20,932 nt of DNA, from positions 1 through 20,932 of the IMG/VR virus record IMGVR_UViG_3300008108_001512, one strand, 5' to 3'. Position 1 is the first letter of the stretch. Every line of letters starts with the position of its first letter. Source of the stretch: a virus. The translations under genes and the position numbers were made by a program. The notes beneath the pieces were generated by a model. That model had not been told where the DNA came from. It did not search any database and saw nothing but the letters and a program-made list of their open reading frames with translations. This document shows positions 9,317-14,387 of this stretch, piece after piece.

Positions 9317-9490
9317 TTACGCCTTCTTATCGGCTACAAAAACGCCGATTGCACCGGAGATCGCCATACCAGCAGCGACAAGCGCATCTATCTTAGCAGC
9401 GTCGAGAGCGATACCAAGGGCAGTCAGCATATAGACAAAGCCACGCCAAGTAGAGGCTTCGGCAAGACGGGCAAGGAGGTAAGACTTCAT
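9317..9490 (-). CDS. Small holin-like membrane protein
   Basis: A 57-residue protein beginning MKSYLLARLAEASTWRG. The ATG at 9490 overlaps the endolysin stop (ATGA) and has AAAGGA seven bases upstream, so I prefer it to longer in-frame starts at 9586, which would lie inside the lysozyme gene. STWRG is followed by a hydrophobic stretch at ~18-30 and a second, Ala/Gly-rich one at ~37-53 ending IGVFVADKK. This layout matches small phage holins of the TWRG...GAIG type encoded beside endolysins. The expected role is to permeabilise or depolarise the inner membrane so that the endolysin reaches the wall. No spanin pair was seen. Confidence 0.78.
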   Translation of the reverse strand: MKSYLLARLAEASTWRGFVYMLTALGIALDAAKIDALVAAGMAISGAIGVFVADKKA

Positions 9491-9960
9491 GGTTTTTCCT
9501 TTGTTAAGGGTTCTTTGAACAGATCGCGCTCGGCTTTGCGCCGGTTCACTAAACCGGGAAGGATTCTTCCTCCCGCATAGACCCACTTATCGAACTCAGC
9601 AGCGGCGGCTTCGTACTCACGCGCATTCAGCTTACGAAGTAAAGAACTTCTAGCTAAGGCTCCTGCACCTAGATTATAGGTAAAAGATACCAGCGCGTCG
9701 AATCTATTCTGATTGAGCGGAACACTTACAAGCTGATTAACAGACGTAGCGAACTTCTTAACGTCTTGCTTGAGGTAATCAAGCGCCTGCACTTGGGTGA
9801 TTACATCACCCTTCTTGACTTTGCGCCCGTCCGGATAGACAGTAGTCCCGTACCCGATTGTCCACGGATCACCCCCCGTGCCGGGGTCGGGATAAGCCTT
9901 GAGCCGCAGACCCTCAAAGTCGGCAATGAGTTTCAGACCTCGGGGAGAGATTTGCATCAT
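9487..9960 (-). CDS. Endolysin, GH24 lysozyme (muramidase)
   Basis: A 157-residue protein with the phage-lysozyme signature. ISPRGLKLIADFEGLRLKAY carries Glu16, followed by Asp25 and Thr34 in WTIGYG, the Glu-Asp-Thr triad of T4-type lysozymes, with a short GTGGDPW insertion between Asp and Thr. FDALVSFTYNLGAGALARSS (88-107) and LPGLVNRRKAERDLF (134-148) are the other family blocks. The length is normal. It would cut the glycan between MurNAc and GlcNAc. There is no signal peptide or N-terminal anchor, so release should depend on the holin-like protein next door. The first of two ATG codons (9960) sits in an ATGA overlap with the upstream stop. Confidence 0.93.
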   Translation of the reverse strand: MMQISPRGLKLIADFEGLRLKAYPDPGTGGDPWTIGYGTTVYPDGRKVKKGDVITQVQALDYLKQDVKKFATSVNQLVSVPLNQNRFDALVSFTYNLGAGALARSSLLRKLNAREYEAAAAEFDKWVYAGGRILPGLVNRRKAERDLFKEPLTKEKP

Positions 9961-10221: not shown

Positions 10222-11667
10222 TTAAACCTCCACTACAGCAGACTTTGAGTAAACTTCAACGCCTTCTACGTCTTTTTTTACAGAAACAACTTTTACCGGG
10301 AACGCTTTGATTTTTGGCTTTTCTTCGTGCTTGAAAACATCCCCCCAGATATCCATGCGCTCAGCGGGAAGATTCTCGGACTCTATCAGCGTCGGAATAA
10401 ACCCGTTAGTCATCTTAGCGATAGCTAAAGCGAAGAACACAACCGCATCGGAATAAGCACTGTCGCAGGATGCCGTCCAGTTATCGCCCTCGATAAACAT
10501 ACAAGAGCCTTTACAAATGTGCAGGACAGGGCATTCGGCGCAAGCGGGCCTATTACTCCAGTGTGTAGCTGTCTTTATACGGACCGCTTCGATATCTTCA
10601 ATATTGCCTGCGTGGTGGCTCTCACCATTGTGTGAAACCTGTACGTGACTCACGTTTTGGCAGGTTATTACGTTACCTTTTAGGTCAATCGCAATCGTAT
10701 TTTCCCGATCCATCCCACACTTCTGTCCTGTCTTTATAGACGGACTATGAGAAAGAACATCCTTAATAAACCCGTCTATCTTTAAAGGGACTAGGTGAAA
10801 ACCTATTTCGGCCTCAGTCGAGAATATGTCATTGAAAGCTGTCTTACGAAATTCGAAATGCTTTTTCTTCGTATCTAGCAGGTTGCTCATACCGCCGTCG
10901 TCATAGGCATCGACTACGCCGCCCTCTCCGAGGATCACATCCGGATCGCCCGTAAGCTCAACAAACCACTCATATATTTCTTTGCGGCTGTAGTTACTCG
11001 CCGTAAGCATAGAATTAAAGCTAATGCGCTTGTCTTTACGCATGGCTTTATAAAAATCTAGGATGGTTTTCTTCTGTTCGGGGTCATCAAAAGGATCGGG
11101 GCCACGAATAGCTTGGCCGGGGCCGTCATGGCTTATCCCAACGCTAAAATTATTTACTAACAGCCAGTAACATATCTCGGGAGTAAGGATAGACCCGTTG
11201 GTGATGATCGAGAATTTAGGTTTCTTTTTCCATGAGGCAAACTTCTCATGCAGGCGCTCGGCTAACGGGCGCAGCGTCTTCCAATAAACAAGCGGCTCAC
11301 CGCCCCAAAACTCAATCCCTAGCCCGCGTTCCTCATTAAATTCAAGGTTATCAAGCTTTGCCAAGAAGGTATCAATGTCTTTCTTGCTTGTTTCTGGCGC
11401 ACGTTCTACAAAACGCTGACTACAATAATCACAAGAATAATTACAAGAAAGACCTAATTGGATCTTGAGGATCTGTACATGTTTACTTTTCCGAAGAGGA
11501 GCGTCTTTAGAAAAGGGAATAGATAACGTATTGTTTTGAGCGGCTATAGACGGATTATGAAAAACAAAACCAGCTTCCGTATGGAGAATATTGGTTTCAT
11601 TGTTATAGAGGAGCCTAATAGAATCTCCTGTAGAAGGATTCTTAGCCGTTACAACAAATTTGGTCAT
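10222..11667 (-). CDS. Radical SAM/SPASM peptide maturase-type enzyme
   Basis: A 481-residue protein. Residues ~65-300 are a radical SAM domain: the cluster motif Cys75-x3-Cys79-x2-Cys82 (CNYSCDYC), GGEP at 122-125, SIITNG at 153-158 and SHDGPG at 179-184. Residues 317-401 carry a complete SPASM set, C-x13-G-x4-C (317, 336), then C-x2-C-x5-C-x3-C (376, 379, 385, 389) and Cys401. These bind two auxiliary [4Fe-4S] clusters in family members such as anaerobic sulfatase maturases and enzymes that make thioether or C-C crosslinks in peptides. A ~65-residue N-terminal extension and ~80-residue C-terminal tail are not recognised. The gene starts 6 nt after the Cys-rich gene without a clear Shine-Dalgarno sequence. 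The neighbour is the obvious candidate substrate; no CxPxR sulfatase motif is present there. Confidence 0.92.
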   Translation of the reverse strand: MTKFVVTAKNPSTGDSIRLLYNNETNILHTEAGFVFHNPSIAAQNNTLSIPFSKDAPLRKSKHVQILKIQLGLSCNYSCDYCSQRFVERAPETSKKDIDTFLAKLDNLEFNEERGLGIEFWGGEPLVYWKTLRPLAERLHEKFASWKKKPKFSIITNGSILTPEICYWLLVNNFSVGISHDGPGQAIRGPDPFDDPEQKKTILDFYKAMRKDKRISFNSMLTASNYSRKEIYEWFVELTGDPDVILGEGGVVDAYDDGGMSNLLDTKKKHFEFRKTAFNDIFSTEAEIGFHLVPLKIDGFIKDVLSHSPSIKTGQKCGMDRENTIAIDLKGNVITCQNVSHVQVSHNGESHHAGNIEDIEAVRIKTATHWSNRPACAECPVLHICKGSCMFIEGDNWTASCDSAYSDAVVFFALAIAKMTNGFIPTLIESENLPAERMDIWGDVFKHEEKPKIKAFPVKVVSVKKDVEGVEVYSKSAVVEV

Positions 11668-11673
11668 CTAATT

Positions 11674-12060
11674 TTAGCCGCAGTCGGGAGGGGCGCAGTC
11701 ACAATCACAGTTGTAACTAGCGGTAGTAGAAAAATTGCAGTTATAAGTACAGGCGCAATTACAGTTAGCTTGTAACCAATTTCGCGTATCGCAGTTTGCA
11801 CAATTTACGCTACCACTAATAAAACAATTGACGCACTGTATATTGCCGCAGTTACAGTTATTCGTGCAGTTACCGTTGCTACAGTTACCATCTGTATTTT
11901 TTTGGTACCAAGCCATCCCCCCGTAACTTCTAAGCGCATTGGGCGAAGGCCGTTGATCGGACCTAGTATTGGCGTAGACCCACGAAAGCTCAATCGGAAG
12001 AGGGTCCCCTGTTTCGTTCTTTATATTGATAAGCGAAAGGGGTGGAGAAGGTAGTGTCAT
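11674..12060 (-). CDS. Cysteine-rich Asx-Cys protein, candidate radical SAM substrate
   Basis: A 128-residue protein. Residues 1-~57 lack cysteine (LPSPPLSLINIKNETG, IELSWVYANT, ALRSYGGMAWYQ) and faintly recall the short N-terminal domain of phage tail-tip or adhesin proteins (LPxxxxISLxxIxxExG). Residues 60-127 hold 16 cysteines, at 60, 65, 69, 71, 76, 79, 87, 90, 100, 102, 104, 108, 118, 120, 122 and 127. Eleven follow Asn and three follow Asp. The protein ends CDCDCAPPDCG. The ATG overlaps the tail-fibre stop (ATGA), so it should be made with the fibre, and the maturase follows 6 nt later. I propose a virion-displayed protein whose cysteines are modified by the maturase. Metal binding or plain disulfides are alternatives. 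It lacks a signal peptide. Confidence 0.85.
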   Translation of the reverse strand: MTLPSPPLSLINIKNETGDPLPIELSWVYANTRSDQRPSPNALRSYGGMAWYQKNTDGNCSNGNCTNNCNCGNIQCVNCFISGSVNCANCDTRNWLQANCNCACTYNCNFSTTASYNCDCDCAPPDCG

Positions 12061-14387
12061 GCTTTTCCTTCTAGAGCTTCAATACGAGCGCGAAGGCGCT
12101 GCACTTCTTTGGCGAGTTCGACACAAGCTACAAGGGCGGCATTACCGTAGGAAACCGCCAAAAATCCGTTTTCACCTTCGTGGACCGCTTCCGGAAGGAC
12201 AGTCTGCAAAGACTGCGCGGTAACACCAACCTGTCGGGCACCGGAACTTATCTTCGTATAGGTACCGTACTTAACACCCGCAAGACCTTCTAGAAATCCC
12301 GCGCTTAAATCGCTCCAGTCTTTCTTTAGACGTTCATCTGAATTGGCGATAAAGTCGGTAGCATAAACGTAGTCGGCATTTGGATTACAGTAAATACCAT
12401 CGGTATTATAAAGACTGCTACCCGAGTTCCACACCATCCGGTATGTGCTAGCGGCGTTGCTGTCAGTAACCGTGATGTTGGTTGCGTTTGTTGCATTTGT
12501 GGCGTTGGTAGCGGTGGAGGCACTACCCGCAGAAGTCGCATACGCGACAGAAGCCCCGTCAACGTACTGCTTTGTCGCTGCGCCAAGGGCTACGGTGGGG
12601 TTCGCATTAAGGACTAGCGCACCGGTCATGGTGTCCCCGGTTTTATTCACCGGAGTAAAACCAAGAGAGTTCTGTTTTGTGCCAAGGCCCGTATCTACAT
12701 ACTGCTTTGTAGCTGCGCCAAGGGCTACGGATGGATCAGCGTTCAGGACCAATGAACCCGTCATTGTATCCCCGGCTTTATTTACTGGGGTATACCCTAA
12801 TGAAGCCTGCTTTGTACCCAGCCCAGTATCAACATATTGCTTAGTCGCAGCGCCGAGGTTAACAGCGGGATCGGCTGAAAGAACCAGCAGACCCGTCATC
12901 GTGTCACCGGCCTTATTCACGGGAGTAAACCCGAGGCCCGACTGCGAATCCACGTATGCTTTAGTGGCGGCATGCAGTGACAGAGTGGGGGCACCCGAGA
13001 GAGTAAGAATCCCCGTCATCGTATCCCCAGCTTTATTTACTGGAGTAAAACCGAGGGACGCTTGCTTACTGTTAAGTCCCGTATCGACGTACTGCTTAGT
13101 CGCGGCCTGAAGGTTAGTGGAGGGGTCACCCGGCAAAGTAAGTGCGCCGGTCATTGTGTCACCGGCTTTATTTACTGGAGTAAACCCGAGGGACGCCTGT
13201 TTAGTAGCTAATCCAGTATCAACATAACCTTTAGTAGCGGCCCCGAGCGTAACGGACGGGTCAGCGTTCAGAACCAACGCACCGGTCATCGTATCCCCAG
13301 CTTTATTTACTGGAGTAAAACCGAGAGAGTTCTGTTTTGCGCTAAGACCGTTATCAACGTATTGCTTAGTAGCTGCACCAAGATTAACAGAGGGATCTGC
13401 GGACAAGACCAGCAAACCTGTCATCGTGTCCCCAGCTTTATTCACTGGGGTATAGCCAAGGCCCGATTGAGCGTCTACGTACGCCTTGGTAGCAGCGTGA
13501 AGAGAAAGAGTAGGGGCACCGGAGAGAGTCAGAATCCCCGTCATCGTATCCCCGGCTTTATTTACCGGAGTGTAACCAAGGGACGCTTGTTTTGTACCGA
13601 GGCCAGTATCGACATACTGCTTTGTAGCCGCGCCAAGGGCTGCGGAAGGATCAGCGGACAGGTTTAGCAAACCCGTCATCGTGTCACCGGCTTTATTCAC
13701 CGGGGTATAACCCAGACCACCACCGGCAACGGCAGAATCTACATATTGCTTAGTCGCAGCGCCGAGGTTAACAGCAGGGTTTCCTGAAAGAATCAGCAGG
13801 CCGGTCATTGTGTCACCGGCCTTATTTACTGGAGTGAAACCAAGCCCCGACTGCGAATCCACGTAGGCTTTAGTAGCAGCATGCAGAGCGACTGTCGGAG
13901 GACCGGAGAGGGTCAACAGACCCGTCATCGTATCCCCAGCTTTATTTACTGGGGTATAACCCAGCGTAGCCTGCTTACCGCTTACAGCATCAATTACATC
14001 TGTTCCGTTACACAAAACAACTGCGGTAATACCGCTAGCGATAGTGACCCCGGACCCCGCTGAGGTTTTCAGAACAATGCTTTGCCCACCGGTTGTGGCG
14101 TTACGCACCACATAGAGCTTCGAAACACTAGGGCAAATAATGTTGCGGGTAGCAGAAAGAGAGACTGACGAAGTGATGTTTAGCGCCATCGACCGGGATT
14201 GGTCTACAGCCCCGTTATTAACCGTCAACGTGTAGTCAGTATCGGTGATACTTACAGAGGTATATCCAGCAATCGCCTGCTCAATCAGAGTGCCAAGGTT
14301 GGTATTGGTAGTAGTACCCCAAGTACCGGATTGGTCACCAGTACCGATAAGTTCGATACGGAGGTTTGATGAGTAAGTCGATGCCAT
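12057..14387 (-). CDS. Tail fibre with eleven repeats and S74 intramolecular chaperone domain
   Basis: A 776-residue protein. Residues 1-~135 form a tail-fibre N-terminal domain (TYSSNLRIELIGTGDQSGTWG, NLGTLIEQAIAGYTSV, KLYVVRNATTGG) expected to attach to the tail. Residues 142-610 are eleven repeats of 40-45 residues, each with GDTMTG and AATKxYVD. A Thr/Asn/Ala-rich spacer follows, then from about residue 683 a peptidase S74 chaperone domain (SDERLKKDW, VGVTAQSLQTVLPEAV, YGNAALVACVELAKEVQRL). S74 domains drive trimer folding and then cut themselves off at a conserved Ser, here plausibly Ser683 of SDERLK. The ATG follows the preceding stop by one base. The gene stop overlaps the Cys-rich gene. 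It is the likely host-recognition fibre. Confidence 0.93.
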   Translation of the reverse strand: MASTYSSNLRIELIGTGDQSGTWGTTTNTNLGTLIEQAIAGYTSVSITDTDYTLTVNNGAVDQSRSMALNITSSVSLSATRNIICPSVSKLYVVRNATTGGQSIVLKTSAGSGVTIASGITAVVLCNGTDVIDAVSGKQATLGYTPVNKAGDTMTGLLTLSGPPTVALHAATKAYVDSQSGLGFTPVNKAGDTMTGLLILSGNPAVNLGAATKQYVDSAVAGGGLGYTPVNKAGDTMTGLLNLSADPSAALGAATKQYVDTGLGTKQASLGYTPVNKAGDTMTGILTLSGAPTLSLHAATKAYVDAQSGLGYTPVNKAGDTMTGLLVLSADPSVNLGAATKQYVDNGLSAKQNSLGFTPVNKAGDTMTGALVLNADPSVTLGAATKGYVDTGLATKQASLGFTPVNKAGDTMTGALTLPGDPSTNLQAATKQYVDTGLNSKQASLGFTPVNKAGDTMTGILTLSGAPTLSLHAATKAYVDSQSGLGFTPVNKAGDTMTGLLVLSADPAVNLGAATKQYVDTGLGTKQASLGYTPVNKAGDTMTGSLVLNADPSVALGAATKQYVDTGLGTKQNSLGFTPVNKTGDTMTGALVLNANPTVALGAATKQYVDGASVAYATSAGSASTATNATNATNATNITVTDSNAASTYRMVWNSGSSLYNTDGIYCNPNADYVYATDFIANSDERLKKDWSDLSAGFLEGLAGVKYGTYTKISSGARQVGVTAQSLQTVLPEAVHEGENGFLAVSYGNAALVACVELAKEVQRLRARIEALEGKA
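12558..13964 (-). repeat. Eleven tail-fibre repeats of 40-45 codons
   Basis: Each copy begins LG[YF]TPVNKAGDTMTG and ends AATK[QAG]YVD. Three copies (1, 4, 8) have the variant LHAATKAYVD with a short QSG linker; most others have LGAATKQYVD with a longer TGLxxKQ linker. Copy 11 has VNKTGD. The copies differ mostly at third codon positions. Copies 4-5 (13326-13580) and 8-9 (12801-13055) form a duplicated two-unit block. Confidence 0.93.

Follow-up and report, generated by a model that had tools for sequence, protein, structure and literature searches.

A radical SAM enzyme encoded beside fibre-type proteins with Asn-Cys tails in hundreds of uncultured phages suggests fibre tips modified as in bacterial peptide antibiotics

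In a 20.9-kb virus contig (IMG/VR record IMGVR_UViG_3300008108_001512, positions 1 to 20,932; these 20,932 nucleotides are hereafter the window) we identified two adjacent genes which, at a probability of about 0.7, represent the enzyme and the substrate of a phage RiPP-like pathway in which a Cys run at the fibre tip would be modified. Sequence comparison suggests that hundreds of uncultured phages, the present one included, in which a radical SAM enzyme is encoded beside a fibre-type protein ending in NCNCNC, may modify their fibre tips as in bacterial peptide antibiotics. The Cys-rich protein is very probably the substrate of the enzyme and is probably located in the phage particle. By analogy with known maturases, Cys thioethers are the likeliest chemistry, at about even odds, and a role of the modified tip in adhesion, or any other benefit of it, is weakly indicated. 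Our search of the open-access literature found no account of radical SAM enzymes modifying phage fibres, and a system of this kind appears to be undescribed so far; a pelagimyophage study mentions cassettes with radical SAM genes in the region for host recognition and assigns them no role (PMC7029224).

On the minus strand of the window, a tail fibre gene (12057..14387, 776 aa, with repeats and a C-terminal S74 chaperone domain, PF13884) is followed by the gene of the Cys-rich protein (12060..11674, 128 aa, 16 Cys), whose start overlaps the stop of the fibre gene, by a spacer of 6 nt (11668..11673), by the radical SAM/SPASM maturase gene (11667..10222, 481 aa), by a short ORF of unknown function directly after it (10220-9957) and by a phage lysozyme gene recognized by domain search (9960-9487). 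The fibre carries about a dozen repeats of about 33 aa (GDTMTG..L..ATKQYVD) ahead of its S74 domain. The radical SAM cluster site of the enzyme is C75-x3-C79-x2-C82 (11422..11445), and its SPASM domain (residues 317-401, 10465..10719) holds C317, C336 (G331-x4-C336), C376-x2-C379-x5-C385-x3-C389 and C401. The original prediction had been built on a complete C-x3-C-x2-C site with seven SPASM Cys, and on a 128-residue, 16-Cys protein encoded 6 nt upstream of the enzyme and directly after the tail fibre; both observations held, and all ten Cys are invariant in an alignment of 40 relatives.

Cys amounts to 0.39% of the residues in the 12 other proteins of the window, the enzyme included, and against this background at least 16 Cys in 128 residues would occur by chance with P ~1.6e-19. 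Since the gene pair is conserved in relatives, the Cys-rich ORF is not spurious. Its predicted structure showed pLDDT values of about 75-85 in about residues 1-54 (11899..12060), where relatives share the consensus MTLPxSGxI..D.N.E.G, and mostly below 50 beyond; residues 60-127 (11680..11883) form a Cys run, mostly of N/D/A-Cys dipeptides, which we propose as the modification site. In such a model the protein would look like a RiPP core behind a folded handle, a low model confidence by itself proving nothing. The protein had no match in Pfam, PHROGs or NCBIfam, nor by tblastn in GenBank phages, and the very low model confidence of the Cys run left nothing to use in a fold search. The assignment of this 128-aa protein to tail fibres is putative, made only through the homology of its Cys run.

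The association between the enzyme and the Cys run was examined from both sides. A profile search with the Cys-rich protein recovered 158 relatives, and the enzyme was present at 79 of the 80 loci fetched, the exception (L100) being a contig that ends no more than about 200 nt from the Cys-rich match. Two arrangements were observed in these loci, with a Cys-rich protein of 115-173 aa upstream of the enzyme, as in the window, or one of about 300 aa downstream of it. A search of viral contigs with the enzyme gave at least 535 relatives, and an ORF with ([NDA]C)x3+ was encoded on the strand of the enzyme at 76 of 90 viral loci found by the enzyme alone, compared with none of 4014 opposite-strand ORFs at viral loci and none of 4969 at bacterial-genome loci (0/8983 together). 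Half of the 14 run-less viral loci (L030, L051, L073, L082, L086, L087 and L089) have a Cys-rich neighbour by a looser criterion, contig ends truncate four more (L003, L035, L048 and L062), and an internally deleted copy is present at L065; the true viral exception is one 44-kb contig fragment, counted as L015 and L094, where the enzyme occurs and no Cys run was detected.

We also scanned viral contigs for (Asn-Cys)x4 codons without regard to the enzyme. Among the matches listed there were 120 stretches, 105 of them in an open frame; the enzyme was encoded within the same few kb in 77 of the 105 and elsewhere in the record in 11 more (88/105). Of the 17 in-frame stretches lacking the enzyme among these matches, 8 carry the run no more than about 1.5 kb upstream of a contig end; the other 9 look like simple repeats or like something other than C-terminal tails. 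The enzyme accompanied none of the 15 out-of-frame stretches listed, full records included, and none of the 110 listed matches of an (Asn-Gly)x4 control (NGNGNGNG). A scan for (Ala-Cys)x4 codons returned mostly dinucleotide repeats, together with two phage-like C-terminal tails among the matches, both with the enzyme. Some of the scanned contigs are near-copies, and collapsing them left, among the matches listed, 130 enzyme clusters with a Cys run and 142 distinct carriers. The pairing of the enzyme with the Cys run is thus beyond chance: homologues of the two genes, far from occurring independently of each other in most phages, co-occur near-constantly, whichever gene comes first and across widely differing phages. 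This is one of the features by which RiPP pathways are recognized, a maturase genetically linked to a ribosomal candidate substrate with a recurring core motif; mere adjacency could also reflect a shared role in assembly. A protein of about 285 aa with no Pfam match (L290 435-1292 and homologues), encoded upstream of the enzyme, belongs to a cluster that spans 94 of 244 distinct loci and is a possible third component.

When GTDB genomes were scanned with the enzyme as sole query, 80 loci were obtained, some of them in cultured hosts such as Burkholderia paludis MSh1, Paraburkholderia BCC1886, several Limnohabitans, Polynucleobacter, Thalassobacter stenotrophicus and Nereida ignava. An ([NDA]C)x3+ ORF was found on the strand of the enzyme in 59 of them; among the 21 others, several have less than 2 kb of upstream sequence and three (L344, L355 and L364) carry a slightly different run. 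One prophage-like locus (L294) encodes the enzyme and a downstream lysozyme-like ORF; no Cys run was found there, and this exception is unexplained. In a sister branch from Variovorax, Ramlibacter and a gammaproteobacterial MAG, ORFs of 64-118 aa ending in (S/T)DC..ISP lie just upstream of the enzyme (L343 7591-7806; L349 7621-7830; L361 7748-7945; L362 7612-7806; L338 7623-7979), and these non-phage ORFs are possibly an uncharacterised family of bacterial RiPP precursors.

The proteins that carry the run are in large part fibres. The Cys run forms the end of tail fibres of collagen-like type (L202, L271) and of further fibre proteins (L207, L216, L211, L285), and carriers of relatives were recognized as tail fibres by collagen (PF01391), phrog_5073 and S74 domains. 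Among the 142 non-redundant carriers listed, 96 end with the Cys run, whereas in others the run is followed by a Hint-like domain (8), by S74 (2) or, in at least 23, by a domain starting with KI(I/V)C. A Hint or Hint-like domain lies directly after the run in L019 5844-7295 (gp28 of phage JWF), L126, L075, L304, L325, L353, L357, L363 and L277; the match exceeded the Pfam cut-off only in JWF gp28 and was weaker elsewhere. Members of the Hint and S74 families are known to cleave themselves, so that the run could become the mature C-terminus. In cyanophage SynMITS9220M01, where a family search did not find the enzyme, a KIxC-type C-terminal domain is preceded by poly-Pro in place of Cys in a protein adjoining annotated fibre genes, which counts towards an enzyme-substrate pair. 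In that protein (L368 1669-3519, SynMITS9220M01_028) a poly-Pro/poly-Arg run occupies the place where relatives of the domain carry the Cys run.

Near-constant co-occurrence with a partner that is usually of tail-fibre type lends strong support, at the level of sequence, to the original prediction of a phage-borne enzyme that modifies a Cys-rich virion or adhesin-type protein. Its idea of one special 16-Cys target has to be widened: modification of a Cys-rich protein by the phage's own enzyme remains well supported, and the target would be a C-terminal (Asn/Ala/Asp-Cys) run borne by many unrelated proteins. The fusion of the run to collagen-like or other tail fibres in many relatives, and the lack of an exporter or a leader peptidase among the most frequent neighbour clusters, make it quite improbable that the Cys-rich product is instead a secreted or injected RiPP-like effector of late infection acting outside the particle, as might be proposed from the free-standing short Cys-rich proteins beside a lysis gene (the lysozyme at 9487-9960 in the window) and from the resemblance of the bacterial sister loci to RiPP operons.

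The enzyme belongs to the radical SAM superfamily (PF04055, 32.2 bits, cut-off 29.5) and to the SPASM family (TIGR04085, 34.1 bits, cut-off 27, with the order C-GX4C-CX2CX5CX3C-C), and over residues 49-429 it matched PHROG 1802 (phrog_1802; E 2.5e-62). This family is catalogued as 'radical SAM domain-containing protein' without a role, and includes gp30 of Achromobacter phage JWF. JWF encodes a tail fibre, gp28, with a NCNCDCNCNCSC run, two genes upstream of gp30; unlike in the window, a Hint domain follows the run. The annotation of the enzyme genes of JWF and of phage 2-1 does not go beyond radical SAM or sulfatase-maturase protein. A radical SAM protein of Campylobacter CP220-type phages was set aside as a relative (26% coverage, 28% identity, no annotated Cys-rich neighbour).

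We compared the enzyme with the profiles of characterised maturases. The best NCBIfam profile was that of the ranthipeptide maturase PapB (2.7e-23), with a score of 82.7 bits far under the cut-off of 340 (NF047865); the SCIFF maturase model gave 45.9 bits against 425 (TIGR03974) and the anaerobic sulfatase maturase model 52.7 bits against 349 (TIGR03942). We therefore did not file the enzyme as PapB, SCIFF or anSME, and its chemistry is not readable from profiles, since it falls far under the cut-off of every characterised maturase model. The sulfatase maturase score speaks against that identity, and it is extremely unlikely that the gene encodes an anSME-type enzyme or is a host-metabolism gene present by chance: the JWF homologue is annotated as an anaerobic sulfatase-maturating enzyme and there is similarity of fold, but no sulfatase was seen among the window proteins scanned and the enzyme is tightly linked to Cys runs.

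The AlphaFold2 model of the enzyme (pLDDT 90.3) had as nearest solved folds CteB (Z 23.4), ChlB (19.9), anSME (19.2) and TigE (17.3), then SuiB and SkfB, all of which we take, partly from entry titles, to be peptide or protein modifiers; the epimerase EpeE was also among them. The N-terminal 60 residues consist mainly of strands and loops, and no RRE-like (peptide-binding) domain was identified in this whole-enzyme model, within which alone the N-terminus was seen. CteB (5wgg, 5why), the SCIFF sactipeptide maturase, is the best structural match over 350 residues and forms thioethers on a Cys-rich substrate, the window pair likewise having a Cys-rich partner; however, identity is 16% and the SCIFF model score is far under its cut-off. 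The PapB/PapA ranthipeptide pair resembles the window pair in that a radical SAM/SPASM enzyme adjoins a Cys-rich substrate, and differs in that the proposed substrate of the window enzyme is a phage protein of fibre type that bears Asn-Cys runs. For PapB, Cys-Xn-Asp spacings of n = 0-6 are acceptable (PMC9413430), which makes short-range Cys links chemically plausible, although such links were reported for Asp/Glu and not for Asn.

The same enzyme-substrate pair might carry out another chemistry, such as epimerisation, the formation of C-C or C-O bonds, or an alteration of the Asn that precedes each Cys. We regard this as possible and as less likely than thioether formation. The failure of the enzyme to reach any maturase model and the presence of EpeE, TigE and SuiB, which forms a C-C bond, among the nearest folds would fit it. 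So would the selectivity of the residue before Cys, which in 1491 cases from 111 non-redundant relatives was Asn in 72%, Ala in 12.5%, Asp in 4% and Gln in 4% (the share of Asn being inflated by a motif filter with a preference for Asn and Asp), as well as the genes for Asp/Asn beta-hydroxylase and 2OG oxygenase that some large phages encode close to the enzyme. On the other hand, the high Cys density itself and the thioether-forming CteB as best structural match argue for thioethers. Asn makes up 27% of the non-Cys residues in the Cys-run segments.

Under the preferred reading, a small Cys-rich protein associated with the tail fibre, presumably at its tip, would be produced directly after the fibre. 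The N-terminal domain of this protein may attach it or present it to the enzyme, and the disordered C-terminal (Asn/Asp/Ala-Cys) run would be the modified core. During particle assembly the radical SAM/SPASM enzyme would bind this protein and modify the run, the likeliest reaction being the formation of thioethers between Cys sulfurs and carbons of nearby residues, following ranthipeptide/sactipeptide logic. A floppy poly-thiol tail could thus be converted into a knot that is rigid and redox-stable and that, at the end of the fibre, contacts the host or holds the tip together. In related phages the same run sits at the extreme C-terminus of fibres, or before a Hint or S74 domain whose self-cleavage would bare it. 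If this is true, a large group of environmental phages bind their receptors with tips that contain more than the 20 standard residues, so that sequence-based prediction of host range would miss the part that touches the host; PHROG 1802, a phage radical SAM family without an assigned role, would gain a function, and new maturases would act on long proteins instead of small peptides.

A subset of loci encodes in addition a Trp halogenase near the enzyme (PF04820, 3.7e-97), and there the Cys run ends in Trp (..FVCACACW, ..WICACACW). Among the clusters listed, 14 have both the halogenase and the Trp, 1 the halogenase only (a weak match), 5 the Trp only and 110 neither (Fisher P 8e-14), the C-terminal Trp thus being present in 14 of 15 halogenase-bearing clusters; the enzyme tree needs just three changes of this trait, which means few independent events. 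This pairing points to tailoring of residues and, together with a radical SAM/SPASM peptide-modifying fold that is not a known metal loader, speaks against a role of the Cys run as ligand of a metal or of an Fe-S cluster in the tip of a trimeric fibre, with the enzyme helping to load or protect it. Such a role is improbable, even though the thiols of an alternating x-C-x-C would all point to the same side of a strand, the run is found on trimeric collagen-like fibres, and the tip of T4 gp37 binds iron through HxH motifs. If the preferred reading of a modified tip is true, it suggests a natural substrate for some phage-encoded tryptophan halogenases.

Halogenase loci include L137 6278-7468, L079, L063 and L030, among others, and the gene is absent from the window and from the records of L002, L005 and L006. 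SrpI, a flavin brominase of the proteusins, has a ribosomal peptide as its substrate (PMC10858898), and the same is proposed for the relatives that bear a halogenase; it differs from the window, which has no halogenase, and belongs to a bacterial natural-product pathway. A link to cyanophage halogenases was dropped: within the limit of the search no member of the window enzyme family was detected in those phages, and near the halogenase of Pelagibacter phage HTVC008M no open frame holds a C-x-C-x-C run, so that we make no claim on the substrate of cyanophage halogenases.

Large-phage loci contain 2OG-Fe(II) oxygenase or Asp/Asn beta-hydroxylase genes downstream (L012 2561-3208; L018 10693-11310; L130 7453-8235), and hydroxylation of the Asn in Asn-Cys is a possible activity of their products; a second radical SAM gene is present at some loci. 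It is an evenly balanced proposition that these genes belong to a multi-enzyme phage RiPP-like line, in which the radical SAM/SPASM enzyme, in some phages with a Trp halogenase, a 2OG or Asp/Asn hydroxylase or a second radical SAM enzyme, would build a cross-linked, sometimes halogenated, non-proteinogenic tip that Hint or S74 processing exposes; this would be a new type of chemistry in virus particles. Two loci (L172 3051-10408 and L213) carry four radical SAM genes and a protein of 67-79 aa with an (NC)n tail, their main enzyme being distant from the window family.
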